A DNA stretch of 64,000 nucleotides from the NCBI RefSeq assembly GCF_000328705.1, contig NC_019673.1, positions 5,704,001 through 5,768,000 of the forward strand. Reading direction: 5' to 3'. This DNA comes from Saccharothrix espanaensis DSM 44229 (lineage in GTDB: Bacteria > Actinomycetota > Actinomycetes > Mycobacteriales > Pseudonocardiaceae). Below the pieces are notes generated by a model. That model was given only the letters and a program-made list of their open reading frames with translations. It searched no databases and was not told the origin of the DNA. This document shows, in pieces, positions 4,735 to 22,469 of the stretch; positions within the stretch are counted from its first letter, which is position 1; each line of letters opens with the position of its first letter. The translations under genes were made by a program, and so were the position numbers.

Positions 4735-4755
4735 GTGCACTGACTCCCTTGTGAC

Positions 4756-5037: not shown

Positions 5038-5064
5038 CCACCTCAAGCTACTCAGCGCCCAGCA

Positions 5065-5100
5065 CTCTGTCAGCCGGGCACTTGTCACCTGATGTGATGA
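5065..5100. promoter_or_regulatory. divergent promoter region with GTCACCTGATGTGATGA element
   Basis: The gap between the carrier gene and the dehydrogenase contains GTCACCTGATGTGATGA (5084-5100), with the inverted halves TCAC and GTGA about CTGAT. On the minus strand CTGACA (about 5065-5070), then 16 nt and GTAGCT, reads as plausible -35/-10 boxes for the carrier operon. The element would overlap the upstream edge of that promoter. A near copy lies at 12742-12759 upstream of the MIO lyase operon, which suggests one shared regulator. Confidence 0.45.
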
Positions 5101-5224
5101 GAAAGCCAGACGCCACAGGGGTTTGCCGCTCCGGTAAAGACCTTCGCACGGCGACCACCGTCCACTGTGCACTACCGTCGAGGCGATGAACCGAGCAGCG
5201 CTCGGTTCCGGGTGGAGGAGTGGC

Positions 5225-6382: not shown

Positions 6383-7556
6383 CACCAGGACTCGTGGCGA
6401 GCGCGCGTTCGAGCAGGGGGAGGGTCCGGTCCCGCAGGTCGCTCTCGTACCGCGCCAGCGATTCCCGCACCGGGCGCCCCGAGGCCAGGGCCGCCGCCAG
6501 CTCGGCGGCGTCGCGCAGCGCGCTGTTGGCCCCGTGCCCGAGCATCGGCGGCATGGCGTGGATGGCGTCGCCGAGCAGCGTCACGTTGCCCGTCCGCCAC
6601 GTCGCCGGCGGCGGGAGCATCCGGATCGTCCGGGGGACGATCGTCGCCGGGGCCACACCGTCCACCAGGAGCCGCAGCGAGGGGTGCCAGTCGGCCACCG
6701 CGTCCCGCATGAGCGAGTGCAGGAACCCTTTCGGCGCACCGAAGAAGTCGTGCGGCCCGAGGTCGGGGTCGGTGATCTCCAGGCTCACCGCCACGTAGTC
6801 CTCGACCGGGTCGAGCCCCACCCCCGCGGCGGCGCGCGCCGCGTCCGCCACCGCGTGGCGCGGCTGGAAGAGACCGGCCGCGAGGTGCGTCCCGCGCGGG
6901 TCGCGGATCATCACGAAGCTGTCCTCGAACGCGGCGGGCAGCGCATCCGCCAGCTCGTCGGTGAGCGGGGCCTGCGACAGCAGGGCGTGCTCCACCAGGG
7001 GGATCACCGCGACCTCGGGCAGCAACCGGCTCCGGACGACGGAGTTGATGCCGTCCGCACCGACCAGCAAGGTGCCGCGCGCGTGGCCGCCGCCGGCGAA
7101 GTCCACGACCACGTCGCCGCCGTCGTGCCGGTAGCCGGTCGCCTCGTGTCCGAAGTGGACGATGTCGGTGATGCCGCTGAGCAGGATCTGGCACAGCGTC
7201 CTGCGGTGCACGCTGGTGTGCGGCAGGACGGGGTCGTTGGCCGGACCGAAGTGCGGGATCGTCGCCAGTTCCACCCCGTGGTGGTCGAGCACGGCGACGA
7301 GGTCGCGCCGGGGCGAACGCCGGGAGGTCGCCGTGTAGAGGCGGTAGAGGTGCTCGGGCAGGCAGCGCCGCAGCGCCGAACCTCCGTCGGCCCCCATGTG
7401 CAGGATGTACCCGCCCCACGCCGGCCCCGGCGCGCGCTCGTACACCGCGCAGGAGATCCCCGCGCGGCGCAGGCCCTGCGCCAGGCAGAGGCCGCCGACG
7501 CCGGCTCCGACGACGATCACGTGCTGCCCGTCGCTCCCGGGTGCGCGCGGCGGCAT
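6360..7556 (-). CDS. FAD-dependent aromatic-type monooxygenase (PHBH fold)
   Basis: A 398-residue group A flavoprotein monooxygenase. It shows the N-terminal dinucleotide motif VVGAGVGGLCLAQGL, a DG motif near LLVGADGINSVVR, and the second FAD motif LLGDAIHAMPPMLGHGAN. Such enzymes hydroxylate activated aromatic or enolic substrates using NAD(P)H and oxygen. The ATG at 7556 shares one base with the P450 stop (TGATG), so the two are translationally coupled. An arylpropanoid-derived substrate is likely given the MIO lyase in the same operon, but none is proven. Confidence 0.85.
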   Translation of the reverse strand: MPPRAPGSDGQHVIVVGAGVGGLCLAQGLRRAGISCAVYERAPGPAWGGYILHMGADGGSALRRCLPEHLYRLYTATSRRSPRRDLVAVLDHHGVELATIPHFGPANDPVLPHTSVHRRTLCQILLSGITDIVHFGHEATGYRHDGGDVVVDFAGGGHARGTLLVGADGINSVVRSRLLPEVAVIPLVEHALLSQAPLTDELADALPAAFEDSFVMIRDPRGTHLAAGLFQPRHAVADAARAAAGVGLDPVEDYVAVSLEITDPDLGPHDFFGAPKGFLHSLMRDAVADWHPSLRLLVDGVAPATIVPRTIRMLPPPATWRTGNVTLLGDAIHAMPPMLGHGANSALRDAAELAAALASGRPVRESLARYESDLRDRTLPLLERALATSPGVTARASR

Positions 7557-8770
7557 CAGCGGCTCAGCCGGTACTCGATGGGCAGCGCGGTGAGCCCTCC
7601 GATGAACGTGGAAGCCGCGCGCACCGGCGTTCCCGCCACTCGCGCCGACTCCAGCCGGGCCACGAGTTCGGTGAAGAACACCCCCAGCTCGACCTTGGCG
7701 AACGACGCGCCGAGGCAGTGGTGGCCGCCGCTGCCGAAGGAGAGGTGGCGGTTGGGGGTGCGTCCGACGTCGAACGTGAACGGGTCGGCGAAGACGTCCT
7801 CGTCCCGGTTCGCGGACGCGTAGTTCAGCAGCACCGCGTCGCCGGCGCGGATGGTGACGCCGCGCAGTTCGTGGTCCTGGGCCGCGGTCCGCATGAACGA
7901 CTTGGTCGGCGTGACCCAGCGGAGCACCTCGTCGACCGCGCGCGGCACCGACTCCGGGCTGTGTCGAAGCCGCTCCCACTGGTCCGGGTGCTCGATGAGC
8001 GCGTGCAAGCCGCCGGCCAGCGCCACGCCGAGGGTGTCGTGGCCCGCCGTCGCGATCGTGACGCAGTACGCCGCGGTGTCCCGTTCCGACAGGCGGCCGC
8101 CGTCGCCACGGGCGTGCACGACGGCGGACGCGAGGTCGTCCCGGGGCTCGGCGCGGCGGTCGCCGACCACCCGGCGGAAGTAGTCGAACAGCTCCTGCTG
8201 GGCCGCCACGAACCGGTCCGGGTCACTGCCGTGGACGTCCCGGGTCAGATCGAGGATCCGGCGGTGGTCCGCCTCCGGCACACCGAGCGCCGACAGCACC
8301 ACCTGGGCCGGGAACCGGTCGGCGACCTCCGCGACGAAGTCGCACGCCCCGCCCAGTTCGAGCATCCGGTCGACGTACCGCGCGGCGAGTTCTCCCATCC
8401 TGGCGTGCAGCCGGTCCACCGCGCGCGGCAGGAACAGCTTGGCTCCGATCGCGCGCACCGCGCGGTGGTCGGAACCGTCCATGTGGATGAGCGTGGTGAG
8501 GTCGGAGGTGCACTCCCCCGCGGCCCGTTCCATCGCCGTGGTGGTCAGCACCGGCCTGGGCGCGTTCAGGAACCGCTCGTTCGAGCACCCGATCGAGAGC
8601 ACGTCGCTGTGCTTGGTTATCGCCCAGAACGGTCGGTGGTCGGGCGGGCTCACCCAGTGCACGGGCGCTTCGCCGCGCAGCAGCGTCAGGGCGTTGTGCA
8701 AGCGGTCGTCGTCGGCGTAGACCACCGGATCGGCGAGGGCGCGACCGGCGGCTTCCACAGCTGAACCCAT
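7556..8770 (-). CDS. cytochrome P450
   Basis: A 404-residue soluble bacterial P450. Visible motifs: the I-helix oxygen-activation segment TIATAGHDTLG, the ExxR pair in DEVLRW, and the heme loop FGSGGHHCLGASFAKVE. The I-helix acid-alcohol pair is intact, so normal monooxygenation is expected. GGAGG precedes the ATG at 7 nt. It lies between the condensing enzyme and the FAD monooxygenase, in one direction with both, which suggests successive oxidative tailoring. The substrate, possibly carrier-bound, cannot be read from sequence. Confidence 0.9.
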   Translation of the reverse strand: MGSAVEAAGRALADPVVYADDDRLHNALTLLRGEAPVHWVSPPDHRPFWAITKHSDVLSIGCSNERFLNAPRPVLTTTAMERAAGECTSDLTTLIHMDGSDHRAVRAIGAKLFLPRAVDRLHARMGELAARYVDRMLELGGACDFVAEVADRFPAQVVLSALGVPEADHRRILDLTRDVHGSDPDRFVAAQQELFDYFRRVVGDRRAEPRDDLASAVVHARGDGGRLSERDTAAYCVTIATAGHDTLGVALAGGLHALIEHPDQWERLRHSPESVPRAVDEVLRWVTPTKSFMRTAAQDHELRGVTIRAGDAVLLNYASANRDEDVFADPFTFDVGRTPNRHLSFGSGGHHCLGASFAKVELGVFFTELVARLESARVAGTPVRAASTFIGGLTALPIEYRLSR

Positions 8771-8815
8771 TGATCCGCCTCCGTCGTCGTCAAGGGGTCG
8801 GGCGTGCGCCGAGGT

Positions 8816-9952
8816 CTACGGGGTCCAGCCGCCCGGGGGCACCTTCATGGACAGCGCGCCCGCCGAGAAGCTCAGGCCGAACGCCATCACCAGGCTCTCC
8901 CCCTCCGGCCGGTGCACCTGCTCGGCGAGCATGAGCGGCACCGAGCAGCCGATCGTGTTGCCGCACTCGCGCAACACCCGGTAAGCGGAGGCGACCTTGT
9001 CGCTGTCCGGGCGGACCTCGAACTCGGCGCACAGCCCGTCGAGGATCTGCTTGCTGCCGGTGTGCATGAACAGCGCCGTCGCGTCGGCCGGTGCGGCGAG
9101 GCCCGTCTTCCCGCTCGCGATGACCTCCTTGATGGTGCGGCTCGCGTACCACAGGCCCCGTGCCGCAACCCGGGGGCTGAGCGTGTAGAGCCGACGACCG
9201 TGCACGATCGGGACGTCCGAGCCGCCGTCGGGCACGGTGCCGAGTTCGGTGTCCTCCGGCAGCTCGTTGGTGAGGCTGACACCGGGACCGAACGACGGCC
9301 CGTCGCCTTCCGACTCGAACAGCACCGCGACCGCGGCGTCACCGAAGAGGAAGCCGTGCATGGCGTCCACGGTCTCCTGCCTGCGTTCGGCCTCGATCTC
9401 GCTGAAATGGGCGTACCGGCCCGGCAGGGGCGGGGAGAGCGGCGTTATGGCGTCCAGGAAGGCCGCCAGGACGTACTTGCCGGGGTTGCAGCTCAGGTAC
9501 CACCGGGCGGTCTCCACGACCTTCGCGATCACCGAGCACCCCATGTACTGCACGCTGAGCGTGTCGGCCGACCTGGGGATCTCCGGCAGGTCGGCGACGA
9601 GGTCGCAGACCATGCTGGGGAGCAGGCGACCGGGGCTGCTCGTGGCACCGATGACCAGTCCGATCGACTCCGCCGGGACGTCGGCCTTGTCCAGGCAACG
9701 CCGCACGGCCCGCACGGCCAGCGCGCCGGCGGGCAGGCCCACCTCGGGCTCCGCGCCGTCGAACAGCACCTGCGGGTAGTTCGCCAGGATCGAGTGGCGG
9801 TTGTCCACGCCGAGCTTGCCCATCATGTCGGCCAACGCGTCGGAGAGCCGACCGCCCGCCGCGGTCAGCAGTTCCCCGGTCGACCAGTGCCACTCGGGCA
9901 GTGCCGACGCGATCGCCCGGACGTGCGGGTCGAGCACGGTGGTCTGGGTCAT
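8816..9952 (-). CDS. KAS III / type III PKS-like condensing enzyme
   Basis: A 378-residue thiolase-fold enzyme with a full Cys-His-Asn triad: Cys139 (QYMGCSVIAK), His297 (FMHTGSKQI) and Asn332 (ECGNTIGC). The HTGSKQILD segment resembles the HPGGxxILD of chalcone-synthase-type enzymes more than the HQAN of FabH, while overall length fits either. Expected role is decarboxylative condensation of an aryl or acyl starter with malonyl units, or acyl transfer. Clustered with an MIO lyase and a ligase, it parallels bacterial cinnamoyl-primed pathways (the Photorhabdus stilbene logic is a known example). The product is unknown. Confidence 0.8.
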   Translation of the reverse strand: MTQTTVLDPHVRAIASALPEWHWSTGELLTAAGGRLSDALADMMGKLGVDNRHSILANYPQVLFDGAEPEVGLPAGALAVRAVRRCLDKADVPAESIGLVIGATSSPGRLLPSMVCDLVADLPEIPRSADTLSVQYMGCSVIAKVVETARWYLSCNPGKYVLAAFLDAITPLSPPLPGRYAHFSEIEAERRQETVDAMHGFLFGDAAVAVLFESEGDGPSFGPGVSLTNELPEDTELGTVPDGGSDVPIVHGRRLYTLSPRVAARGLWYASRTIKEVIASGKTGLAAPADATALFMHTGSKQILDGLCAEFEVRPDSDKVASAYRVLRECGNTIGCSVPLMLAEQVHRPEGESLVMAFGLSFSAGALSMKVPPGGWTP

Positions 9953-9973
9953 TTCGGTGCGCCCCCTCGGGGT

Positions 9974-10744
9974 CTAGCCGGCCACGGCGGACACGCCGCC
10001 GTCGATGACGATGTTCTCCCCGTTGATGTAGCCCGCCTTGTCCGACGCCAGGAAGACCGCCAGTTCGGCGATCTCCTCGGGCTCCGCGACCCGCCGCGAC
10101 GGCGTCACCCGCATCAGGTCGTCGTGCACGGCCGACCCGATCAGGTGCCGGGTCGCCTCGCTGCGCGTCAAGCCCGGACTGATCGCCACCGCCCGGATGT
10201 TGTGCTCCGTCCCGGCCACCGCCAGGTGCCTGGTCAGCGAGATGTTCGCCGCTTTCGCGACCCCGTGCGGGATCATCGACTCGAACCGGACGCCCCGGAT
10301 GCCGGCGACCGAGCCCATGTTGATGACGACCCCGCCGCCGCGTCGCTTCAAGTGCCCCCACGCGGCCCTCGTGCACAGGTAGGGCAGGTGCAGCTCGTTC
10401 TTGATCGTGTAGTACCAGTCCTCCAGCGGCTGTTCGTCGAAGGGGCCGTTGCGCAGGCTCGACGCGTTGTTGAACAGGATGTCGACCCCGCCGAACTCGG
10501 CGATCCCGGCGTCGATCCACGCCTGCGCCCCCTCCGGTTCCGAGAGGTCCACCGGTGCCAGCGCCGCCATGGTCCCGCCCGCCGCCCGGACCGACTCGAC
10601 GGTGCTGTCCGACGCGTCCTCGTGCCGTGCGCAGCCGAAGACCTTGGCACCTTCCGCGCTGAACAGCTTCGCGGCGACCTGGCCGATGCCGTACCGGCCG
10701 GTGCCGCTGATGAAGGCGATCTTCCCGTCGAGCCGACCCGGCAT
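9974..10744 (-). CDS. short-chain dehydrogenase/reductase with altered catalytic Tyr
   Basis: A 256-residue SDR with the cofactor motif SGTGRYGIGQ, NNASS, the catalytic Ser in MGSVAG and the C-terminal NGENIVIDGG. The expected YxxxK is HGVAK: the catalytic Tyr is replaced by His while the Lys is kept. This may change the mechanism or leave a binding or dehydratase-like role. ATG at 10744 is preferred over 10768 because GGGAGG lies 5 nt upstream. It sits between the MIO enzyme and the condensing enzyme in a single leftward operon, so it probably acts on an aryl-ketide or beta-keto intermediate. Confidence 0.85.
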   Translation of the reverse strand: MPGRLDGKIAFISGTGRYGIGQVAAKLFSAEGAKVFGCARHEDASDSTVESVRAAGGTMAALAPVDLSEPEGAQAWIDAGIAEFGGVDILFNNASSLRNGPFDEQPLEDWYYTIKNELHLPYLCTRAAWGHLKRRGGGVVINMGSVAGIRGVRFESMIPHGVAKAANISLTRHLAVAGTEHNIRAVAISPGLTRSEATRHLIGSAVHDDLMRVTPSRRVAEPEEIAELAVFLASDKAGYINGENIVIDGGVSAVAG

Positions 10745-10771
10745 GGGTTCCTCCCGCGTCCTGGGCACCGG

Positions 10772-12430
10772 TCAGACGTCCGCGTCCCAGTGCGGGCGCA
10801 GCGCCGCCACCAGGGCACCCGACCGGATCAGCCCGACGACGACGCCGAGGTCCTCGTCCAGCCGCCGGTCGTGGTCCACGAACGGGACGTGGTCGCGGAT
10901 CACCTCGTAGCCGGTCCTGGTGCCCAGGCCGAGCAGGTGCGCGCCGCGCAGGTCGGCGGCCTGGCAGCCGGCCAGCAGGTGGATCGCGGCGATCTCGGTC
11001 ACCAGCTCGACCACGCTGCGCGCGTCCCGCGCGGCGATCGTGCCCATGCTGACCTTGTCCTGGTTGTGGGCCTCGGTCGACCGGGAGAACGCGGTGGCGG
11101 GGTTGGTCAGCTTCAACGCCTCGGCCGCCAGCGCGGAGGCGGCGATCTGCATCCCCTTGAACCCGTGGTGCAGCCCCGCGGCCGGGTCGCCCGGGTCCAC
11201 CCGGCGCACCAGGTTGGGCGGCAGGCCGTGGTTGAACTTCGTGTCGACCAGCATCGCGAGCTGGCGGTCGAGCAGGTCGCCGACGCTGGCCACGGCGAGC
11301 TTGAGCGAGTCCATCGCCTGCCCGACGTGCCCGCCGTAGAAGTTGCCCCCGTTGTGCACCCGCCCGGTCGCGAAGTCGAACAGCGGGTTGTCGTTGGTCG
11401 AGTTGATCTCGATGTCGAGCCACCGGCGCACCCAGTCCAGCGTGTCCGCGAGCACGCCGTTCACGTGGGGTGCGCACCGCACCGAGTAGCGGTCCTGGAT
11501 GGGCCGGCCCAGCGGGATCACCCCGAGGCCGTCGACGTCGGGGTTGGCTTCGAGCACCTGGGGCGTGTCCAGGCACAGGTCGGAACCGCGCACGAGCGCG
11601 CGGACCCGCGCGGCGGAGCGGACCTGCCCGGGGTGCGGCTTCTGGCGGTGGATCACCGGCTCGAAGTGGCTGCGGTTGCCCATCAGCGCCTCGGCCGCCA
11701 GCGCGGTGCCCAGGTCGGCGACCGCGCACAGCCCCTCCGCGTCGTGCACCGCGAGCACGCCGAACCCGGACATGAACGACGTGCCGTTGATGAGGGCCAA
11801 CCCCTCCTTGGCCTCGAAGGCGACGGGGTCGAGCCCCCGGGACCGCAGCGCGACCGCGGCCGGCACCGGTTCGCCGTCGACCCGCGCCGTTCCCGAACCC
11901 ATGAGCAGGTCGGCCAGGTAGCACAGCGGGACCAGGTCGCCGCTCGCGCCCACCGAGCCCCGTTCCGGGATGACCGGCGTGATGCCGTGCCGCAGGCAGT
12001 CCACGATCAGTTCGACCACGCCGCGCCGGATCCCCGAGTAGCCGCGGGCCAGGCAGTTCGCCCGGACCAGCATCGCGGCCCGGACGACGTCCACCGGCGC
12101 CGACGGGCCGGTTCCGTTCAAGTGGTACTTGATCAGGTTGCGCTGGAGCTCGGTGGTCTTCTCCGGGCTCAGGTGGAACCGTGCGCTGTCCCCGAAACCG
12201 GTGGTCACCCCGTAGATCGGGCGGCGCATCAGGATCAGCCTGTCGCGGGCGGCCACGGAGGCGTCCATCCGGAGCGCGGCGTCCTCGCCGATGGCGATCG
12301 GCACGTCGCCGGGCTCCCGGGCGAACCTCGCCGCGTCCGCGACGGTCAACGCGTCCTCGCCGAGCACGATCCCGGACCGCGCGTCGGCGGCCGGCGGCGC
12401 GCACACGAGCGAAGGGCCATTGTCCTGCAT
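10772..12430 (-). CDS. MIO-dependent aromatic amino acid ammonia-lyase or aminomutase
   Basis: A 552-residue member of the HAL/PAL/TAL/aminomutase family. The MIO-forming triad is Ala162-Ser163-Gly164 in GSVGASGDLVPL. The catalytic Tyr73 is in IYGVTTGFG, with NGT further on and STNDNPL and GGNFYGG downstream. It forms cinnamate- or coumarate-type acids by ammonia loss, or a beta-amino acid if it is a mutase. Several segments (KEGLALINGT, YSVRCAPHV, HGGNF-like) resemble the Photorhabdus PAL StlA, so a PAL-like role is my first guess. The usual selectivity pair reads Tyr102-His103, unlike classic PAL (Phe-Leu) or TAL (His-Leu). GGAGGGA precedes the ATG. First gene of its operon. Confidence 0.88.
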   Translation of the reverse strand: MQDNGPSLVCAPPAADARSGIVLGEDALTVADAARFAREPGDVPIAIGEDAALRMDASVAARDRLILMRRPIYGVTTGFGDSARFHLSPEKTTELQRNLIKYHLNGTGPSAPVDVVRAAMLVRANCLARGYSGIRRGVVELIVDCLRHGITPVIPERGSVGASGDLVPLCYLADLLMGSGTARVDGEPVPAAVALRSRGLDPVAFEAKEGLALINGTSFMSGFGVLAVHDAEGLCAVADLGTALAAEALMGNRSHFEPVIHRQKPHPGQVRSAARVRALVRGSDLCLDTPQVLEANPDVDGLGVIPLGRPIQDRYSVRCAPHVNGVLADTLDWVRRWLDIEINSTNDNPLFDFATGRVHNGGNFYGGHVGQAMDSLKLAVASVGDLLDRQLAMLVDTKFNHGLPPNLVRRVDPGDPAAGLHHGFKGMQIAASALAAEALKLTNPATAFSRSTEAHNQDKVSMGTIAARDARSVVELVTEIAAIHLLAGCQAADLRGAHLLGLGTRTGYEVIRDHVPFVDHDRRLDEDLGVVVGLIRSGALVAALRPHWDADV

Positions 12431-12741
12431 GGTGGCTTTCCCTCCTGGGGAGCGGGAAAACGGCGGTGGCACGTGATCCCACCCGAGGAGGAAGGCACCC
12501 CGGGTCGGTTGCGGCCTGTTGCCTTCCGGCACTTTCTCGCACGCCGGCGGGACCGGCGCGTCACACCGGTTCGCGAACGCCGGCTTCGGTCAGCCGACCG
12601 AAGCGGCGGCTAATGCGGTTCCGGTGGCGGGGAGCGCTCCGGCCGTGGCGACAGCGCTCGTCGCGATCACCGGCCCCGGAACTCGTCCCATGCAGCCGAG
12701 GCTAGCAAGGACCCCCTGTTCCGGCCGGCAGGAAGTCGCAG

Positions 12742-12759
12742 GTCACCTGATGCAGTGAC
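12742..12759. promoter_or_regulatory. GTCACCTGATGCAGTGAC palindromic element
   Basis: GTCAC and GTGAC form a perfect 5-bp inverted repeat around CTGATGCA. The first 11 bases are identical to the element at 5084-5094 in the other promoter region of the same locus. It lies about 310 bp upstream of the MIO lyase start. Most likely an operator for a regulator encoded elsewhere. Confidence 0.45.
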
Positions 12760-12981
12760 AGCAGCGACGCAGCCCTCGCTCCGGGCGGCGATCCGGGCGA
12801 CCACGACCAGGTCCGAGGTCGGCGCAGGACCAGCCGGCCCAGCCCGTCGGACCGGTTCCCGGGACGTTTGCCGGGTGCCCGTCCTGGTCGCGGCTGTGGC
12901 GGTGCCGCGTCCGCTGGTGGAGTCGGCCCCCGCCGGGCGGGGACGATGTCGACCCGGCGCGGCGGAGGAGGTCCGGTACGG

Positions 12982-13032
12982 CCGGCCCCGATGACCGGGG
13001 ACGTCTAAGATCGTCCGGGTCATCGGGGCCGG
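12982..13032 (-). terminator. long hairpin just after the 20-aa peptide gene
   Basis: Two perfect 15-nt arms, CCGGCCCCGATGACC (12982-12996) and its complement (13018-13032), enclose a further 5-bp inner stem (GGACG/CGTCC). It begins 18 nt past the stop codon of the peptide gene read on the minus strand. There is no T-run, as is common for actinobacterial terminators. It marks the end of the P450-peptide transcript and may stabilise it. Confidence 0.65.
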
Positions 13033-13049
13033 GTCGCGAATCCGTTCGC

Positions 13050-13112
13050 CTAGTACCAGTACCAACGGCGTTCCGGCTTGGTGTTAAAGACGCGTCGCAG
13101 CATCGCGGCCAT
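13050..13112 (-). CDS. 20-aa RiPP precursor peptide ending Trp-Tyr-Trp-Tyr (predicted)
   Basis: The minus strand encodes MAAMLRRVFNTKPERRWYWY followed by TAG. A strong ribosome-binding site (GGGAGGAGG) lies 9 nt before the ATG. The ORF overlaps the 3' end of the P450 gene by 29 nt in another frame, so translation is probably coupled. A basic leader followed by a C-terminal cluster of alternating Trp/Tyr is the hallmark of substrates for biaryl- or ether-forming P450s: biarylitides use a pentapeptide, and tryptorubin-type atropopeptides end in aromatic-rich cores. I predict the P450 cross-links the WYWY core and that proteases elsewhere trim the leader. A second ATG at 13103 would give 17 aa but sits too far from the RBS. 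Confidence 0.75.
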   Translation of the reverse strand: MAAMLRRVFNTKPERRWYWY

Positions 13113-14271
13113 GACCGCTCACCTCCTCCCGGTGTCCTGGTGCTCGTTCGGCCCGGGTGCGGTGCAGGGTGAAGGGCCGGGGGACGATGCCCTCGGACAT
13201 GACCGCACGCGGGTCGCCTCCGGTGACCGACAGCCGGGCACCCCCGGCCAGTGCGGTCAGCGCTTCGGTGACCATCGTCTGCGCCACCGAGGCGCCGGGG
13301 CAGGCGAAGGGGCCCGCGCCGAACGGGAGGTAGGTGCCGTGCCCGCCGGGTAGCGCCCACCGGTCGGGTCGGAACGCGTCGGGGTCGGTCCAGCGGCGCG
13401 GGTCGTGGTGGAGCAGGTGCGGGCTGACCGAGACGAGCTCGCCGGCGTGCAGAGCGGTCCCCGCGAGGGTGACGGGGCCGGGGACGGCGCGGCGGAGCAT
13501 CCAGGGTATCGGCCGGTGCCGCATCGCTTCCCGGACGATCTGGTCGGCGGGCCACGGCCAGGCGGAACCGGGGGTGTGGTGCAGGCAGGCCAGCAGCACC
13601 GACCAGGCCAGTGACGCGGCCACCGGCGCCGCCACGGCCCGGAACATCGTGAGGTGCACCTGGGCCACCGACCGGTCGGCCAGGTCGTCGGGGCACGCCT
13701 CCAGCACGGCGTCCAGCACGTCTCGCGGGGCGTCGACGCGCTGTTGCCGACGGTGCCGCACCTGTTCGGTCAGGGCCGCGACCACCCTGGCCCGCGCCAC
13801 CTCCGCCCGCGCCCGCCGCCACACCCGCGACGAGCGGAACACCACGCCCACGTGCGCGGCCCGGTCGGCGCGACTCCGCGCTTCGGCCGGGGTGCCGGGG
13901 TGCAGCAGCAGGTCCGCCAGGCAGCGGTACACCAGCCGGTTGCCGGTCTCAGGCCACCGGCTGACCGACGGCAGCCCCGCCACCGCCGAGGCCAACTCGG
14001 CGCGGTAGTCCGGCAGGCGGGCCCGCAGGACATCACGCACCGCATGGCCGACCTCGACCTGCGCCGCCCGCGTCGGCAGCAGGTCGCCGAAGAACCCGGA
14101 CCTGCCCGTGTTGAACTCCCGGCCACGCAACAGCGCGTGCGCCGCCTCCGGGTCGCCCAGGCACCACCCGCCCCCCGGCAGCGGGATCGCCCCAGTGGCG
14201 CTGCGCCGGCGAAGCTCCTCGACGTACTCCAGCGGATCGCGCCGCAACCGACGCCTGTCCCCGATCCTCAT
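13084..14271 (-). CDS. cytochrome P450, predicted peptide cross-linking enzyme
   Basis: A 395-residue P450. The heme loop is LPFGAGPFACPGASVAQ with Cys324, and ExxR is REAMR. The I-helix reads FRAVAAPVAASLAW: the usual (A/G)GxxT with its acid-alcohol pair is absent, as might suit radical coupling rather than hydroxylation. ATG at 14271 follows GGAGGG by 9 nt; a longer frame from 14454 has only low-complexity sequence. The last ~20 residues (ERAPGHREEVSGHGRDAATRL) overlie the RBS and start of the WYWY peptide. The peptide lies downstream of the P450, the reverse of what I recall for tryptorubin-type loci. No other modifying gene or transporter adjoins. Confidence 0.85.
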   Translation of the reverse strand: MRIGDRRRLRRDPLEYVEELRRRSATGAIPLPGGGWCLGDPEAAHALLRGREFNTGRSGFFGDLLPTRAAQVEVGHAVRDVLRARLPDYRAELASAVAGLPSVSRWPETGNRLVYRCLADLLLHPGTPAEARSRADRAAHVGVVFRSSRVWRRARAEVARARVVAALTEQVRHRRQQRVDAPRDVLDAVLEACPDDLADRSVAQVHLTMFRAVAAPVAASLAWSVLLACLHHTPGSAWPWPADQIVREAMRHRPIPWMLRRAVPGPVTLAGTALHAGELVSVSPHLLHHDPRRWTDPDAFRPDRWALPGGHGTYLPFGAGPFACPGASVAQTMVTEALTALAGGARLSVTGGDPRAVMSEGIVPRPFTLHRTRAERAPGHREEVSGHGRDAATRL

Positions 14272-14794
14272 CCCACGACGCCCTCCGTGAACTGCGTCGA
14301 CCTCCCGCTTTCGACTGCCCGACAGAGGTCTCCAGCTACCGCAGACTTCCCGCCCTCGGCGAAGCCGAACGGAGGCCGGCCGGCCACCACCCGTACGAGG
14401 AGACGACACCACTCGACCAGGGGCCGACCGCCCGCCCACCCGCAGCTGCGTCACCGGGCGTGGTCACCCATGGCGTAGCGGCTCCAGGTGCCGCCTACCG
14501 AGGTGGACCGGGGCACCGGCCGGGCGACAACGGGTCTGGGAGCAGGATGCCCGGCCAGGTCGTGAACCGGCGTTCCAGGGCCGGGTCGCCACGCCCTGGG
14601 TGTGTGCGTTCCTGGCAGACCCGACGTCTGACAGCCGCGACGGCACGGTCGGCGAGGCGTTGGGCAGGCTGGAGTCCAAGACCTGCGGGCGCGGCCTGGC
14701 CAGGCACCACGCGGTCATGATGACCAGCCACGGGGTGCGGACGGATGTTGGTTGCCCGGGGGGTGAGACGCTCTCTGCCGTGTTGACCGTGCGC
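14272..14794. other. intergenic stretch without a clear gene
   Basis: About 520 bp containing the leftward promoter of the P450-peptide pair and the upstream region of the frameshifted ORF at 14795. Frames that remain open give Arg/Gly/Pro-rich products without start signals. I see no repeat or RNA structure that stands out. Confidence 0.4.
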
Positions 14795-15323
14795 ATGAAC
14801 GACATCGCGGCCCGCGCGCTCGGGACCAGTGCTGTCATACCACCGGCCGAGCTCGCGCCGGAGCTGCGCGATTTTCTCCGTGCGGGCGTCGTCCGGCGCG
14901 GCGAGGTCCTGCTGTTCGCGGGATACTCCGGTTGGGCCGACGAACCCCGGCAGGTTCGGGGACCTGACAGGCTGGGAGTGCTTCGTCAGCAGCTTCCACC
15001 TCGACGACGCGGTGCAGGTCACAATCGGGTCGACGGCGGACGGCGAGCCGGTGATCTCCGAGGAGGACCAGGCCTTGATGCTCCGGCACGGGCTCGGCTT
15101 CGCGTTGGAAGTGGTCCGGCTGGTGAACCGGCTGGACAAGCCGGTGGCGGTGCGTTGCATCATCAGCGCGAACACCACCAACGGGAAGTTCCGGTTCCAC
15201 CGGGCGAGGCCGGGCGAGTCGTGGCTGACCGCCGACCTCGACTCCTACGCTCGCGGCTGGCCCGTCGAAAAGCTGATCGTGGTCGACAGCGGGCCGGCCG
15301 GTCTCGGCGGCACTCCTTGGTGA
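14795..15323 (+). pseudogene. frameshifted hypothetical protein gene
   Basis: The first part (MNDIAARALGTS... LLFAGYSGWADEP, from 14795) is in one frame. A well-formed continuation (FGDLTGWECFVSSFHLDDAV... to GGTPW, stop at 15323) is in the +1 frame. The switch falls between about 14940 and 14965. Both halves have protein-like composition, so one gene of roughly 175 residues was probably broken by a small indel, or the base is a sequencing error. I do not recognise the family; no membrane segment or nucleotide-binding motif is visible. Confidence 0.5.
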
Positions 15324-15384
15324 CGGCAAAGGGCCGCTCGGCCTTGTGGGAGTGACGATTGGCTGTAGCGGGTCGTCTACATCA

Positions 15385-16032
15385 CTAGGGACCGGCGGGG
15401 TTCTCGGTGCCTCGGTCGATGCCGAGGGTGGCGACGAGGTCTTCGTGGAGTTGGAACCACACGCGGTGGCAGGAGTCGATGTTCGTCTTGTCGACCCAGT
15501 CGCGGTGTCCGCCCTGTGCGCGTTGCAGGGCCGTCGCGAAGCGGGTGTCGTAGTTGCCGAACCTCGCCAGCACTCCGGCCAGGCGGGCGACAAGCGGACG
15601 CAGGTCGTCGTCGAGCGTGGTGAGTTCCGCCAGGATGCGCCCGTCCCACGCGGTGTCGCGATGGTCGTTGGGGGCGAACCTGTCTTTGTCGGTCGGCCTG
15701 ATCTGCCAGTCGGTGACTGCGCGGAGCAGTCGGGCGTTGAGGGGGATGAAGTCGCGGTAGGTGGCTGCGATCTGGTTCTCCGGGTCGGCTCCGGCGCGTT
15801 CGACGGCGAGTTGGCGCTCGTTCTCGGTCTTGCCCGAGTCGGTGAGCGACCAGCCGCCGAGGTCGGCGAACTCGACGTGCTGCACCCAGCTCTGGCGTTC
15901 TGCCTCGCGCAGCACGCGCAGCGCCTCGTCCGGGCCGGTCCGGGCGCGTTCGGCGATCTCCGCGCTCTTCGCGAAGCCGAGGAGCCGCACCGCGTGCAGG
16001 ATGAGAAGCTCCGGCGTCGACTGGTTCGTCAT
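15385..16032 (-). CDS. winged-helix-like DNA-binding protein
   Basis: A 215-residue protein. Its first 75 residues (MTNQSTPELLILHAVRLLGF... VLREAERQSWVQH... WSLTDSGK) look like a MarR/PadR-type winged helix, with a recognition helix near ALRVLREAERQ and a wing ending in LTDSGK. The C-terminal part has Arg/Asp-rich helices of unknown role. Its ATG overlaps the stop of the upstream HTH gene by 4 nt (ATGA), so the two are one operon. They are divergent from the PEP-utilising-domain gene at 16472 and may control it. Confidence 0.7.
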   Translation of the reverse strand: MTNQSTPELLILHAVRLLGFAKSAEIAERARTGPDEALRVLREAERQSWVQHVEFADLGGWSLTDSGKTENERQLAVERAGADPENQIAATYRDFIPLNARLLRAVTDWQIRPTDKDRFAPNDHRDTAWDGRILAELTTLDDDLRPLVARLAGVLARFGNYDTRFATALQRAQGGHRDWVDKTNIDSCHRVWFQLHEDLVATLGIDRGTENPAGP

Positions 16033-16433
16033 GTCCGCTTGTCCTGCCTGGCACTGAGTCGGGTGACGTACTGCTGGCACGCCTGCGGGGAGTGGAAACC
16101 CATCGCCTCGGCGATCTGGGTCCAGGTCAGGCCCTCGTTCCGGGCGGCGAAGAGCAGCCCGATCTCCACGCCCTCGACCTCCGCCCGTGCCGCCGGGAGC
16201 AGCGCCAGTGCACTCAGGAGATCGTCCCGGGTGAGGTCCGCCGACCGCCAGAGCGCATACTGCGTGAGGTCGACCGCTGTCGGGGGGACGGGGCCGGGCC
16301 GCCACGGGCGTGGCTCCAACCGGTCGGCCCCCAGCTCCATGAGCCGGTCCTGGGCGTCGCGCTCGCGTTGGCCCTGGGCCTGGTCGGCGCTCCGGGTTCG
16401 GTCGAGATCGTGCTTGCGCTCCATGCCACCCAC
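16029..16433 (-). CDS. small helix-turn-helix protein
   Basis: A 134-residue product with a charged N-terminus and a C-terminal helix-turn-helix: GLLFAARNEGLTWTQIAEAMGFHSPQ, where WTQIAEAMG... is the classic first-helix/turn pattern. It lacks an obvious effector domain. The stop overlaps the start of the winged-helix gene at 16032. It lies next to a CAACA-GAA-TGTTG palindrome that could be its own operator. Confidence 0.7.
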   Translation of the reverse strand: MGGMERKHDLDRTRSADQAQGQRERDAQDRLMELGADRLEPRPWRPGPVPPTAVDLTQYALWRSADLTRDDLLSALALLPAARAEVEGVEIGLLFAARNEGLTWTQIAEAMGFHSPQACQQYVTRLSARQDKRT

Positions 16434-16444
16434 TCTGCTACCTT

Positions 16445-16472
16445 CAACAGAATGTTGTCAATGTTTTGTTGA
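16445..16472. promoter_or_regulatory. AT-rich divergent control site with CAACA-GAA-TGTTG palindrome
   Basis: The gap between the divergent genes is only about 38 bp and is strikingly AT-rich for this genome. It carries a perfect inverted repeat CAACA-GAA-TGTTG (16445-16457) and a second imperfect one, TCAA...TTGA (16458-16472). This is probably the binding site of one of the two adjacent HTH proteins and must overlap both promoters. Confidence 0.55.
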
Positions 16473-17644
16473 TGAGCGGACGTGTGATGCTGACGAGACT
16501 GTCCGACGCGACTCGCTCGACCTGCGGCGGCAAGGCGGCAACGCTCGGCGTGCTGCTGCGCGGCGGCCTGCCGGTGCCCGATGGCTTCGTGGTCCCCGCC
16601 GGCGAACAGCGCACCGGCTCCGACGCCGGGCAGGCGCTCCGCGCGGCAGTCGCCCGTGAACTCGGACGGCTGGGCGATCCCGTGGTGGCAGTGCGCTCGT
16701 CTGCGGCGAACGAGGACACGGCGCACGCTTCTGCGGCGGGCCAGTACGAGAGCGTCATCGGCGTTCGAGGACCCGACGACGTGTGCGAGGCGATCGCGGT
16801 CTGCCGGGCGTCTGCCCGCGCCACGCGAGTGGCCGCCTACCGGGACCAGACCGGCGGCAGTACCTCGGCTGTGCACATGGCGGTTCTCGTGCAGCGCGTG
16901 ATCGAGGCCGACGTGTCAGGCGTCATGTTCACGCCCGAGCAGCCCGGGGGTTCCACTCGCATCGAAGCGTCCTGGGGCCTGGGGGTCACCGTCGTGAGCG
17001 GAATCGTCACCCCCGACACCTACGAGGTCGCACCGGACGGGTCCATCGCGTGCACGATCGGCGGGAAGGAGACCCGCGTCGACCTGGGTCACGAGCGCTC
17101 CGGCGTCGTCACAAGCGTTGTCGCAGAGGGACAACAGGCCGCGCGAACCCTGGACGACGACACGACGACGCTCCTCGCGGGGTTGGGAAGCCGGATCGCC
17201 GCCGTGCTCGACGGGCCGCAGGACATCGAATGGGCCGTCGCGGGCGACAAGGTGTGGATCGTGCAATCGCGGCCGATCACAGCCTCACTGCCTGCGATCC
17301 CCCGTTCCGATGCGGTCATGCCCTCGTCGGCGTTGCGAGGAACGCCCGGTTCCCACGGGGTCGTCACCGCGACCGCGCGCATCGTGCGCGGCCCGTCGGA
17401 CTTCCAGACCGTCCGCTCCGGCGAGGTGGTGGTCTGCCGGTACACCGACCCGGCGTGGACGCCGCTGTTCACCATCGCCTCCGGTGTCGTGACCGAGACG
17501 GGCGGTTCGCTATCGCATGCCGCGATCGTCGCCCGGGAGTACGGAATCCCCGCCGTGCTCCGCGTCGCGGACGCCACGACCCGCATCCGGAACGGTGACC
17601 GGATCGCCCTCGACGGAACAGCCGGAACCGTGACCGTCCTCTGA
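16472..17644 (+). CDS. compact PEP-synthase/dikinase-like protein (ATP-grasp plus swivelling His domain)
   Basis: About 390 residues. The N-terminal two-thirds resembles the PEP/pyruvate-binding ATP domain (CGGKAATLG, VPDGFVV, VAVRSSAANEDTAHASAAGQYES, DIEWAV, WIVQSRPI). It is followed directly by a PEP-utilising swivelling domain, TETGGSLSHAAIVAREYGIPAV, with the phosphate-accepting His. Rifampin phosphotransferases and PEP synthases have the same ends but a large extra domain between or after them that is missing here. So it is a minimal phosphohistidine carrier/kinase of unknown acceptor. Start ATG at 16472 is tentative; 16487 is also possible. Divergent from two HTH genes. Confidence 0.8.
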   Translation: MSGRVMLTRLSDATRSTCGGKAATLGVLLRGGLPVPDGFVVPAGEQRTGSDAGQALRAAVARELGRLGDPVVAVRSSAANEDTAHASAAGQYESVIGVRGPDDVCEAIAVCRASARATRVAAYRDQTGGSTSAVHMAVLVQRVIEADVSGVMFTPEQPGGSTRIEASWGLGVTVVSGIVTPDTYEVAPDGSIACTIGGKETRVDLGHERSGVVTSVVAEGQQAARTLDDDTTTLLAGLGSRIAAVLDGPQDIEWAVAGDKVWIVQSRPITASLPAIPRSDAVMPSSALRGTPGSHGVVTATARIVRGPSDFQTVRSGEVVVCRYTDPAWTPLFTIASGVVTETGGSLSHAAIVAREYGIPAVLRVADATTRIRNGDRIALDGTAGTVTVL

Positions 17645-17702
17645 CCCCGACCGCCACCCCGAGGAAGGAGACCGGGAGTCGTACTCGCCGTGCGCACTCC
17701 CG

Positions 17703-18314
17703 ATGTGTCCTATGGCAACCAGGTACCTCTACATCGCCAGACACGGCGACGCCGACGCTTTCGGCAACCTCACCGACACCGGCCGAGAACAGGCCAGGCT
17801 GCTGGGCAAGCGCTTGGCGCACCTGCCCATCACCGCCGTCTGGCACTCACCACTGCCGCGAGCCGCCGACAGTGCGCAGCAGCTCACCATCTTCCTCAAC
17901 GGAAACACACCCGTGGCCGAGGCCCCGGAACTCATCGACCACGTGCCCTACGTGCCGCCCGTCGAAGAGACGCCCCGACCGTGGATACCGTTCTTCGACG
18001 GCTACGAACCCGAGGAGGCCACCGCCGGGAACAAGATCGCCCAAGCGCTCACCGCGAGGTTCGCCACCGCGCCCGAAGGCGGCACGGACGTGCACGAGGT
18101 GCTCATCACGCACGCCTACCCCATCGCCTGGCTCATCCGCGACGCCCTCGACGCGCCGCCCGTGCGGTGGCTCAGCCTCAACAGCGCCAACACCGCGCTC
18201 ACGGTCATCGAGTACCGACCCGGCATCCCGCCCGCCATCGCCATGGTCAACGACATGGGCCACCTCCGCCCCGACCTCCGCTGGACGGGCTTCCCCCCGA
18301 CCGTGCGCCCCTGA
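17703..18314 (+). CDS. histidine phosphatase family protein
   Basis: A 203-residue branch-1 histidine phosphatase. It carries the RHG motif with the phospho-accepting His near the start (YIARHGDAD), a second Arg in HSPLPRAADSAQ, and the late His in EVLITHAYPIAW. It begins about 58 nt after the PEP-utilising-domain gene on the same strand, so the two may be co-transcribed and act on related phosphorylated metabolites. The substrate cannot be read from sequence. A tandem 14-bp repeat begins at its stop codon. Confidence 0.85.
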   Translation: MCPMATRYLYIARHGDADAFGNLTDTGREQARLLGKRLAHLPITAVWHSPLPRAADSAQQLTIFLNGNTPVAEAPELIDHVPYVPPVEETPRPWIPFFDGYEPEEATAGNKIAQALTARFATAPEGGTDVHEVLITHAYPIAWLIRDALDAPPVRWLSLNSANTALTVIEYRPGIPPAIAMVNDMGHLRPDLRWTGFPPTVRP

Positions 18315-18368
18315 CCGTGCGTCCCTGACCGTACGTCCGCAACCGTGCGCCCCTGACCGAGCGTCGCG
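18299..18368. repeat. five imperfect 14-bp tandem repeats
   Basis: Five consecutive units based on GACCGTGCGCCCCT, with one to four changes each, run from the last codons of the phosphatase gene to just before the EF-hand gene's stop codon. The genes are convergent, so the repeat sits where both transcripts end. No function is evident. Confidence 0.8.
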
Positions 18369-18378
18369 GCCTTGGCGG

Positions 18379-18936
18379 TCAGCCGGGGATCCTGCCGAAC
18401 AGGTGGGTGGCGGGGGCGTCCGGGTCGTCGCCGTAGAAGAACTCGGCGAGCGCCCGGTGGAACTCGGCGCGGTCCAGCCCGCCGGAGCCGTCCTGGTCCA
18501 GCGCTTCGAAGACCGCGGCGGAGTCCTCAAGGGACACGTTGCCCGCCAGGCCGAAGATCTCCCCGAACTCCGCCTGGTCGACCCTGTTGTCGCCGTCGAG
18601 GTCGATCAGGTCGAAGTAGCAGTCGGCCACCGGCCCGACCTGCTGCGGGTACCGGGCGGGATCGGCCAGCGCCCGCTGGAACCCCTCGGTCATCTCGCGC
18701 AGGTCGACCTTCCCGTCACCGTCGGAGTCCATCGGCTCGATCACGCTGGCCCAGAAGGCGTCCAGCCCTTCGGTCAGCCGGTGGGCGGTCGCGGACCCCG
18801 ACGCGGCACCACGGGCCGCGATGTAGCGCTCGCCCATCAACCGGACGTCCTGGCGGGTGATCACCCCGTCGCCGTCGACGTCCGCGCCCCTGAACCACTG
18901 GCGATACTTGAGATCTCGAACTCCAGTCACGGCCAC
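18379..18936 (-). CDS. four-EF-hand calcium-binding protein (calerythrin-like)
   Basis: A 185-residue cytosolic protein with four canonical 12-residue calcium loops: DVDGDGVITRQD, DSDGDGKVDLRE, DLDGDNRVDQAE and DQDGSGGLDRAE, spaced as two EF-hand pairs. This size and layout match calerythrin/CabB-type actinobacterial calcium sensors or buffers. There is no signal peptide. GTG start. The neighbouring molybdopterin oxidoreductase is on the same strand but about 100 bp upstream, and no functional link is clear. Confidence 0.92.
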   Translation of the reverse strand: MAVTGVRDLKYRQWFRGADVDGDGVITRQDVRLMGERYIAARGAASGSATAHRLTEGLDAFWASVIEPMDSDGDGKVDLREMTEGFQRALADPARYPQQVGPVADCYFDLIDLDGDNRVDQAEFGEIFGLAGNVSLEDSAAVFEALDQDGSGGLDRAEFHRALAEFFYGDDPDAPATHLFGRIPG

Positions 18937-19037
18937 GCCAGGTAGTCAACCGACACGTGGTGTCCAGCGGTGCCGCCAAGAGGGGGACTGGATCAGTCGT
19001 TCGGGTGGTGCCGACGCCGTCCACGTGGCGGTGCACG

Positions 19038-21350
19038 TCAGCTGGGCGGCACGAGCTTCGGTGGTGCGAAGGCGAGCACGTCGGGAAGGGTGCCTTCGTA
19101 GCGCTCGACATCGACCAGCGCGCTGAGGGCACTCGGTCCTTGGGACAGGCGCGAGCACGGCCGATCCGCCGTGAGGACGTTCGGGTTGCCGTGGCGGTCC
19201 AGCGTTCCGCTCGAACCGGGCTCGACCGGGTCCCACCACGCTCCCGTGGACAGTTGCACGACGCCCGGCATGAGGTCGTCCGACAGGACCGCGCCCGCGA
19301 GACAGCCACCTCGGTCGTTGAAGACGCGCACGATCATGCCGTCCGCGATGCCGCGCGACGCGGCGTCCGACGAGTTGATGGTCACCGGCTCACGACCACG
19401 GACCTTCGAACCGAGGCTGTGGCCGCCGTTGTCGTACTGGCTGTGCAGGCGGGTGGCGGGCTGGTTCGAGATGAGGTGCAGCGGGAACCGGTCCGACAGG
19501 TCGGCGCGCAGCCACTCCGCCGGTTCGAACCACTTCGGGTGGCCGGCGCAGTCGTCGTAGCCGAACGAGTCGATCTTTTCGGAGAAGATCTCGATCCGGC
19601 CCGACGGCGTCGCGAGCGGGAACTGCCTCGGGTCCGAGCGGAGGTCTTCGAAGCTGCCGGCATGCGGTCCGGTCGACGGCGGCAGCTCGGCGGTGGAACT
19701 CGCCCAGAAGTCGTCGAAGTCGGGCAGGGCGGCGGTGCCGAGCTTGGCCCTCGTCTGCTCGTAGAGGTGCCGCACCCAGTCGATCTCCGAGCGCGACTGC
19801 GTGAACTCCCGCTCGAACCCGAGGCGGGCGGCCAGGGCCGCGAAGATGTGGTGGTCGGTGCGGGACTCGCCCGCCGGCTCGCGGACCTTCGGCATCGCCA
19901 CGAGGTGGGGGTCGGAGAACCCGGCGGCGAAGTCGTCGCGCTCCAGGCCGGTGGCGACGGGCAGGACGATGTCGGCGAACTTCGCCGTCGTGTTCCACCA
20001 GGCTTCGTGGACCACCACCGTGTCCGGGACCTGCCAGGCGCGGGCCAACCGGTGGAGGTCCTGGTGGTGGTGGAACGGGTTGCCCCCGCACCAGTAGATC
20101 AGGCGGAGTTCGGGCAGCGTGAGCCGCCGGCCGTCGTAGTCGATGACCTCGCCCGGGTGCAGCAGCGTGTCGGCGATCCGCGCGACGGGGATGAAGTCCG
20201 GGACCGGGTTGGGCACCTCCGGGACAGTCGCCACGAAGGCGCGGTCCCGGGCGACGCCCGTCGCGTCCATGGTCGCGTAACCCGCGCCCCAGCCGCCGCC
20301 GGGCCGGCCCATCGAGCCCGCCATCGCGGCCAGCACGACCGACATCCAGATCGGTTGTTCGCCGTGGTCCGCCCGCTGCACCGCGTAGTTGACCATGATG
20401 AGGGAGCGCCGGGACGTGAGGCGGCGGGCGAGGTCGGTGATCGCGTCGCGACCGATGCCCGTGATCCCCGCCGCCCAGGCGGCGTCCTTCGGGATGCCGT
20501 CGAGCTCGCCGACCAGGTAGGCGGCGAAGCGGTCGAACCCGACGCAGCACCGGCGGAGGAAGTCCTCGTCGTGCCACCCGTTGACCAGCATCGTGTGCGC
20601 GATGCCGAGCATCGCGGCGGTGTCGGTGTTGGGGACGACGGGCAGCCACTCGGCGTCGAGGAAGTCGGCGACGTCGCTGCGGATCGGGCTGAGGTTGACG
20701 AACCCGACCCCGGCCGCACGGCACCGGCGTTGCAGGTCCCGCGTCTGGTGCCGGGCCAGCCCGCCGGGGTTGACCTGGCTGTTCTTGAGGGCCAGTCCGC
20801 CGAACGCCACCACCAGCTCGCAGTTGTCGACTATCTCGTCCCACATCGGCATCCGGCTCTGGTAGCTCCACGGATGACCGCCGATCACGTGCGGGAGGAT
20901 GACCTCCAACGCGGCGGTGCTGTAGGTGTTGCGGGAGTCGGTGTATCCCCCGTCCAACGCCAGGAACCGGTGGAGCTGCGCCTGCGCGTTGTGGAACCGG
21001 CCCGCACTCGCCCAACCGTAGGACCCGCCGAACACCGCGCTGTCCCCGTGCTGTGCACGAACTCTCCGCAGCTCGTCGCTCACCAGCGTGATCGCGTGGT
21101 CCCAACTCACCTCCACGAAGGCGTCCGCGCCTCGGGCCGCGCCGGGGACGCGCGGCTCGCCGTTGAGCCAGCCCTTGCGCACCGCGGGGCGCAACACGCG
21201 AGCGCTGTCCTCGGCGGCCGTCACCATCCCGGGGCCGATGGGCGATGGCGCGGGGTCGTCGTGCCTCGGCTCGATCCGCACCAACCGGCCGGAATCGACT
21301 ACGGCGACGAAACTGCCCCAGTGCGTCGCGACCGACAGGCGTCGTTCCAC
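19038..21350 (-). CDS. molybdopterin oxidoreductase of the biotin-sulfoxide/TMAO reductase type
   Basis: A 770-residue DMSO-reductase-family protein without the N-terminal CxxC 4Fe-4S site, as in BisC and TorA. The segment GGSYGWASAGRFHNAQAQ contains the Ser that ligates molybdenum in that branch. Other cofactor-binding segments include YWCGGNPFHHHQD and the C-terminal domain from FPLHLISNQPATRLHSQYDNG. There is no twin-arginine signal, so it is cytoplasmic, as for BisC. It probably reduces a sulfoxide or N-oxide, with electrons from an unlinked donor. Start GTG at 21350 follows GGTGGGG. No Moco genes adjoin. Confidence 0.9.
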   Translation of the reverse strand: MERRLSVATHWGSFVAVVDSGRLVRIEPRHDDPAPSPIGPGMVTAAEDSARVLRPAVRKGWLNGEPRVPGAARGADAFVEVSWDHAITLVSDELRRVRAQHGDSAVFGGSYGWASAGRFHNAQAQLHRFLALDGGYTDSRNTYSTAALEVILPHVIGGHPWSYQSRMPMWDEIVDNCELVVAFGGLALKNSQVNPGGLARHQTRDLQRRCRAAGVGFVNLSPIRSDVADFLDAEWLPVVPNTDTAAMLGIAHTMLVNGWHDEDFLRRCCVGFDRFAAYLVGELDGIPKDAAWAAGITGIGRDAITDLARRLTSRRSLIMVNYAVQRADHGEQPIWMSVVLAAMAGSMGRPGGGWGAGYATMDATGVARDRAFVATVPEVPNPVPDFIPVARIADTLLHPGEVIDYDGRRLTLPELRLIYWCGGNPFHHHQDLHRLARAWQVPDTVVVHEAWWNTTAKFADIVLPVATGLERDDFAAGFSDPHLVAMPKVREPAGESRTDHHIFAALAARLGFEREFTQSRSEIDWVRHLYEQTRAKLGTAALPDFDDFWASSTAELPPSTGPHAGSFEDLRSDPRQFPLATPSGRIEIFSEKIDSFGYDDCAGHPKWFEPAEWLRADLSDRFPLHLISNQPATRLHSQYDNGGHSLGSKVRGREPVTINSSDAASRGIADGMIVRVFNDRGGCLAGAVLSDDLMPGVVQLSTGAWWDPVEPGSSGTLDRHGNPNVLTADRPCSRLSQGPSALSALVDVERYEGTLPDVLAFAPPKLVPPS

Positions 21351-21477
21351 CAGGTATCAACCCCACCTCTGAAGTGCCCGAAATCTCGGACAACGGTCGC
21401 GCTCCGCCAGCGGCGTGACACCCACGGTAGCCCCGACCGAGGGCGGGCAGAAGACGATGTGGCGGGGGCGGATCAGC

Positions 21478-22377: not shown

Positions 22378-22469
22378 GCGCATCAGCCTCGTGGCCGACG
22401 GCCCTTCCGGGCTTGGATGGATCCGCTGGGCCGCGCTGCCGGCCGTGCCGGGGCTGGAGCGGGCCGACG

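Follow-up and report, generated by a model that had tools for sequence, protein, structure and literature searches.

The window, a stretch of 64,000 nucleotides from Saccharothrix espanaensis DSM 44229, contains a cytochrome P450 gene followed by a 20-codon gene for a peptide ending in WYWY. The best explanation for the whole, with a probability of about 0.77, is a two-gene RiPP cassette in which the P450 would join Trp17 to Trp19 of the peptide and the leader would be cut off. The gene pair and its order were conserved, the two genes co-occurred in related genomes, and both Trp residues but not the Tyr residues were retained. The mini-gene is very probably the precursor gene of a P450-RiPP pair. 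This 60-base gene marks a compact cassette in several actinobacterial genera, which very probably makes cross-linked tryptophan peptides.

Table 1. Positions of the P450 gene, the precursor gene, and associated elements in the window
Feature	Position	Strand	Basis
Cytochrome P450 gene, 395 aa	13084-14271	minus	Pfam p450 match; ORF reading with ATG at 14271 and stop at 13084-13086; proposed Trp-Trp cross-linking enzyme
Precursor gene MAAMLRRVFNTKPERRWYWY (MAAMLRRVFNTKPERR-WYWY), 20 codons	13050-13112, stop included	minus	Translation; ATG at 13110-13112 within the last P450 codons, stop at 13050-13052
Shine-Dalgarno site GGAGGTGA of the precursor gene	13119-13126	minus	Direct reading; 6 bases before the ATG
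Core WYWY, conserved part W-x-W	13053-13064	minus	W-x-W in 23/23 rows of the window P450 group
Leader MAAMLRRVFNTKPERR, basic, Arg-Arg at its end	13065-13112	minus	Presumed recognition and cleavage region
Perfect 15-bp hairpin 3' of the precursor gene	12982-13032 (stem 12982-12996 with 13018-13032)	minus	Stem search and folding

All elements of the arrangement described in the first-pass annotation, the 20-codon ORF, its strong ribosome-binding site, the overlap with the 3' end of the P450 gene, and the perfect hairpin, were present on direct reading (Table 1). Purine-rich sites of the Shine-Dalgarno type were also located 5' of the related precursor genes, with weaker ones in the loci L022 and L024. 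The stretch between positions 12960 and 13060 folded with −56.1 kcal/mol (z = −5.07), and none of 200 shuffled sequences was equally good. A terminator scan found none, and a T run was not present; the 15-bp hairpin is probably the transcript end, albeit without a U tract. Perfect stems of 8 to 18 bp were found within 110 bases 3' of the precursor gene in all 25 loci examined, in a search that scored lengths up to 18 bp and had no shuffle control. Short stems are frequent in GC-rich DNA.

The end pattern MGNTGGTAYTGGTAY had a single occurrence in the 9.36-Mb genome. Among the ORFs of 14 to 30 amino acids preceded by a Shine-Dalgarno site, 1 of 13 in the window possessed a W-x-W end, as did 16 of 91 in the 305,072 bases of 17 related loci, with starts counted singly and two loci contributing two starts each. 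All 16 were precursors adjoining the P450 gene and came from 14 of the 17 loci, while L069, L077, and L081 had no W-x-W ORF under this filter. The single occurrence of MGNTGGTAYTGGTAY in this genome and the restriction of such W-x-W ORFs to the P450 gene indicate that the ORF is more than a chance event, as does the reappearance of the peptide, its reading frame, and its Trp spacing in other genera.

Matches of the P450 were present at E ≤ 1e-40 in 11 of 25 genomes of the genus, in 23 of 390 genomes of the family, 18 of these with the close type, and in 1 of 396 genomes of the phylum, which was the own genome. At E ≤ 1e-30, they occurred in 4 of 394 genomes of the class and in 18 of 392 genomes of one further genus, Streptomyces. 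The own genome was included in the counts wherever it was drawn, and about four candidates per genome were scored in all searches except the genus draw. Five of the 12 P450 loci from named relatives were full-length, and the other 7 were short, weak matches. The downstream DNA was read for all loci from the genome draws, for the 5 named relatives, and for one linear 5.7-Mb Embleya plasmid record, resulting in 50 distinct loci once three duplicates and a gene split into two pieces had been removed; the weak or partial P450 matches L004 to L006 and L012 to L018 were left out of the precursor survey.

A candidate precursor was located directly downstream of the P450 gene in 49 of these 50 loci, in agreement with the P450-RiPP gene pair proposed in the first-pass annotation. 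The loci were sorted into 26 with W-x-W peptides, 15 with WYLYHHI or WYYYHHI ends (L036 to L043 and L059 to L065, from the family of the window and the genus Streptomyces), 6 in which 4 to 6 residues separate the two Trp (L045, L053, L054, L056, L057, and L093, with the ends WEPDVWL twice, WEPNVWL, WDPPVWL, WNPKDPW, and WSSSGSDWE, and in three cases a further Trp in the leader), 1 with an AWRIW end (L058), 1 with a single-Trp peptide (L055, SWFRAS), and 1 without the peptide (L011). The earlier expectation that homologous P450 loci would not lack the small ORF held with this one exception, and in one further locus, L055, the peptide has just the single Trp. In L011, from Nocardia transvalensis, a close P450 and the conserved ribosome site are present and an ATG follows, yet a W-x-W peptide is absent; the ORF after the ribosome site, at about 4130 to 4270 of the locus, has 36 codons and an end without W-x-W, and the W-x-W peptide may have been lost or replaced.

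The same genome harbors a second P450, 61% identical, followed directly by MTAVLRRVLRNKPSRRWNWA after GGAGGTGA, the peptide ending in WNWA; among the 17 matches of the own-genome search, the next one after this paralogue was a 43% partial match. An identical precursor peptide was present in Saccharothrix tamanrassetensis (P450 86% identical) and Amycolatopsis anabasis (P450 79% identical), and the loci of Streptomyces griseocarneus and Streptomyces sp. NRRL S-340 encode the peptides MAAMMRRIFSNKPARDWYWY and MAATMRRIFSNKPARRWYWY, respectively. In L058, a P450 with 41% identity is followed by MRKFIRRLQDVTAKQAWRIW, which has a W-x-x-W end as in bitryptides and no KSLK leader.

A profile built from 20 W-x-W precursors gave 19 matches at E ≤ 7.8e-6 in 18 of 386 family genomes, and these were the same 19 places as those of the close P450s (417 bits or more) from the 390-genome search. 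The window precursor, itself a row of the profile, was recovered from the own genome with an E of 1.8e-12, and recovery of members of the family is unsurprising because 14 of the 20 rows came from it. The next match had an E of 0.0096 (20 bits), and weak matches were frequent, with 203 of the 386 genomes at E ≤ 0.5, including the 18. The informative parts of the search are the recovery of L028 (E = 6.6e-9), L031 (7.8e-6), and L034 (6.6e-7), which were neither rows of the profile nor identical to rows, and the lack of strong matches elsewhere. A short precursor with an aromatic core and a P450 are kept as a pair, which is one of the features of P450-modified RiPPs, or cyptides in the wide sense.

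Neighborhoods of 16 to 19 kb were compared for 18 stretches, 17 related ones and positions 4001 to 23000 of the window, using ORFs of 120 amino acids or more at E ≤ 1e-25 and more than 35% identity. Apart from the P450 with its antisense frames and a single further group, present in 4 loci at scattered distances, no ORF was common to at least 3 loci. The cassette thus seems to stand alone; a wider biosynthetic cluster around the P450 pair was unsupported by this comparison. Outside the P450 region, two ORFs of the window were common to other loci, at 39% (L066) and 34% (L077), and the 39% relative is that of the second P450 of the window, located at 7556 to 8770. This second P450 belongs to a run of genes on the minus strand, 7556 to 12532, together with a tyrosine-ammonia-lyase-like gene, an SDR gene, and a KAS III-like gene. 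The best match of the tyrosine-ammonia-lyase-like gene was BagA/FevW with 681.5 bits at a cut-off of 1000, and the KAS III-like gene, a label that is a reading of the sequence, had no NCBIfam match at E 1e-15. The run appears to form a small biosynthetic cluster of its own.

A regulatory or attenuator leader peptide for the genes downstream, instead of a RiPP precursor, would likewise be encoded by a short ORF rich in Trp and Tyr with a hairpin on its 3' side, and the tyrosine-ammonia-lyase-like gene is the next one downstream on the same strand. Such a function is nevertheless very improbable: the genes of this run were not found together beside relatives of the P450 pair, where the pairing with the P450 was kept, and ends such as WDW, WKW, and WIWH would be unlike an aromatic attenuator. 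Conservation of the peptide as a side effect of the overlapping P450 coding sequence, which shares 29 bases with the precursor ORF in the window, is extremely unlikely. The offset of the peptide start from the P450 stop codon varies, up to 70 bases ahead of it and up to 49 bases past it, the W-x-W codons are situated past this stop in all W-x-W loci except L035, and the pN/pS ratio was lowest in the peptide frame (0.58, compared to 0.93 and 1.70 in the other two frames). This codon test compared 24 distinct stretches of 45 bases in 276 pairs, all picked beforehand for W-x-W and a basic leader, and it moderately supports selection on the frame of a precursor peptide.

In an alignment of 20 W-x-W precursors, W17, W19, and R7 were invariant, and M1, R6, P13, and R16 reached at least 90%. 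These rows had been picked for W-x-W, so that the groups of the P450 tree are the fairer test of conservation. In the tree group containing the window P450 (support 80/91), W-x-W was present in 23 of 23 rows, and in an inner group (99/99) in 20 of 20. The middle residue in the 23 rows was Y in 12, N in 5, I in 3, and K, F, or D in 1 each, and the last residue was Y in 12, absent in 4, A or H in 2 each, and E, P, or Q in 1 each. The surrounding group of 33 rows (100/99) comprised 26 with W-x-W and 5 with two more widely spaced Trp; of the remaining two rows, one had a single Trp and the other lacked a peptide. Conservation of the KPERR-WYWY part in homologous loci, which had been set as a test beforehand, was found for the leader and the W-x-W end but not for the two Tyr. 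The idea that all four aromatic residues carry cross-links does not agree with a W-x-W that was constant in 23 rows while both Tyr varied. The constant W-x-W and the variable Tyr make a cross-link between Trp1 and Trp3 the most likely one and indicate that two Trp, not four aromatic residues, are required by the system.

Alternatively, the P450 may link two intact indoles in a conventional manner, such as the C7-N1 bond of cihunamide, or may add a second bond with Tyr2 or Tyr4, which is possible if somewhat unlikely. Cihunamide and scabrirubin contain a C-N bond between two Trp, and for ApyO the kind of bond depends on which residue stands in the middle (PMC13192836). WYWY was moreover the commonest end, exact in 12 of the 26 W-x-W loci, with L035 ending in WYWYAG; it was also found at a gene outside the 50 loci, in the genome G478 of the genus Streptomyces, where the P450 match was in two pieces (L046/L047) and the WYWY precursor was intact. 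The spacing in cihunamide, however, is i, i+3, and Tyr is absent from the WNW, WDW, and WKW members of the window's group, which indicates that Tyr is not needed for the reaction of the family.

The window P450 gave a Pfam p450 match at residues 243 to 341 (E = 1.3e-23). Cys324 in the heme loop as well as E248 and R251 in the ExxR motif were invariant in an alignment of 28 rows, and the acid-alcohol pair of the I-helix, read by eye, was absent in all of them. The best NCBIfam match was ApyO (NF050147) with 69.9 bits, far below the cut-off of 525 bits. The best sequence match in the PDB was 9ulw (E = 4.2e-25, residues 9 to 370), which is named only “Cytochrome P450.” Weak matches below this entry, at residues 183 to 350 with E of about 5e-11 to 2e-10, included NascB, NzeB, and AspB, but they carry little weight because the matches just under 9ulw were animal and other P450s. 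NzeB and AspB form a pyrroloindoline. The same product type is reported for NascB (PMC11843346). An AlphaFold model calculated without an alignment had a pLDDT of 38.8 and was useless, whereas the model with 28 sequences reached 82.5, with values below 50 near the heme loop (310 to 313 and 317 to 320) and in the tail. Solely generic P450s were among the matches listed by Foldseek for the latter model.

In the P450 tree, the window P450 grouped with three other WYWY enzymes (100/100). Residue 216 of the I-helix was Pro in all 26 W-x-W loci as well as in the AWRIW locus and the single-Trp locus L055, Asn in all 6 loci with longer spacing, Ser in all 15 loci of the hyalucidin type, and Thr in L011. 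These classes coincide with the tree groups, so the pattern may be the result of descent alone. The gap between the two Trp is 1 residue in W-x-W and 2, 4, 5, or 6 residues in the sister branches (AWRIW, WEPDVWL, WNPKDPW, and WSSSGSDW). It is possible, though rather unlikely, that one P450 lineage has tuned the ring size, with residue 216 tracking the spacing and a second, Tyr-based bridge in the WYWY members, as a family undescribed as such. Together with the enzymes that belong to them, these naturally varied cores and Trp spacings form a panel for studying what determines the type of bond and the size of the ring in P450 macrocyclases.

In the proposed two-gene cassette, the P450 and the precursor should be encoded by one transcript, the P450 first and then the 20-residue precursor, translated from its own strong ribosome site in the P450 end. 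The basic leader with the motif xLRR[VI]FxxKPxRR, presumed to serve in recognition and cleavage, would bring the peptide to the P450, which would oxidize the C-terminal W-x-W and join Trp17 to Trp19 (i, i+2). By analogy with the reviewed enzymes discussed below, the bond would most likely connect C3 of the first Trp with the indole N1 of the second, and C2 of the first Trp would close on its own backbone N to yield a pyrroloindoline with a net loss of 2 H; the chances of a pyrroloindoline are about even. Host proteases may remove the leader, perhaps at Arg15-Arg16, leaving a cross-linked WYWY tetrapeptide as the end product.

Several known systems resemble this cassette. The sister clade with 15 P450s is, judged by its peptides, the hyalucidin A family: two of these peptides matched the NCBIfam model of the hyalucidin A precursor (NF053510) with 72.6 and 41.3 bits at a cut-off of 35. 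The hyalucidin A family shares with the window pair a homologous P450 (33 to 37% identity to the window P450), a precursor located downstream, and a C-terminal aromatic core. In contrast to the window pair, its core is WYLYHHI, its leader is longer, and its P450s form a separate clade (100/100); the window precursor did not match NF053510 at E ≤ 10. The title of the hyalucidin paper (Angew. Chem. 2026, e22698) names tandem P450 catalysis. Three genomes of the genus Amycolatopsis (G087, G154, and G163) possess both the hyalucidin type and the W-x-W type.

Kinship to the biarylitides or to tryptorubin-type peptides, as suggested in the first-pass annotation, fails in each case at one defining sequence feature. 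The defining features of atropopeptides are a KSLK motif in the leader and a Trp at position 2 of the core (PMC11450843). In the window peptide, Trp17 would be position 2 if the core were assumed to start at Arg16. Like the window pair, the atropopeptides or bitryptides (tryptorubin, scabrirubin) have two genes, one P450, and a Trp-rich C-terminal core. The KSLK-type motif, however, was absent in 49 of 49 precursors, and the Trp spacing is i, i+2 in the window peptide versus i, i+3 in bitryptides. In biarylitides, one P450 also joins aromatic residues i and i+2, but their precursor is a pentapeptide encoded by an 18-bp gene (PMC13417212), compared to 20 residues in the window. The aminopyruvatide P450 ApyO, which requires Arg or Lys in its substrate (PMC13192836), likewise performs an i, i+2 coupling, although its substrate motif is Tyr-Leu-Tyr. 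Other literature on known kin comprises PMC12352619, PMC13383641, and PMC12299652. A literature search found no relevant report on a WYWY-P450 or a WxW RiPP precursor, which is not to be read as absence from print, and in a search for P450 RiPP precursors of Saccharothrix, only PMC13417212 treated P450-cross-linked peptides.

The motif and the genera fit the RiPPs with a W(i)-W(i+2) cross-link. According to a 2024 review (PMC11002830, with Hu 2023 and Liu 2024 as sources), P450s of Amycolatopsis xylanica, Streptoalloteichus hindustanus, and Streptomyces spectabilis (reference P450s WP_218134608.1, SHF91911.1, and WMW29964.1) link C3 of a Trp to N1 of Trp(i+2) and also bond C2 to the backbone N of the first Trp. 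As in the window, a short peptide follows a ribosome site near a single P450, and a Trp is connected to the second-next Trp; two Trp one residue apart characterized every row of the window group, and loci of the present survey occur in Amycolatopsis and Streptomyces as well. The window pair therefore probably belongs to these W(i)-W(i+2) P450 RiPPs, an assignment based on motif and genera. Because the review reports Trp(i)-Trp(i+2) P450s in related genera, the initial view that the locus is “probably new” is doubtful, and the parts that may be new are the WYWY core and the series of ring sizes.
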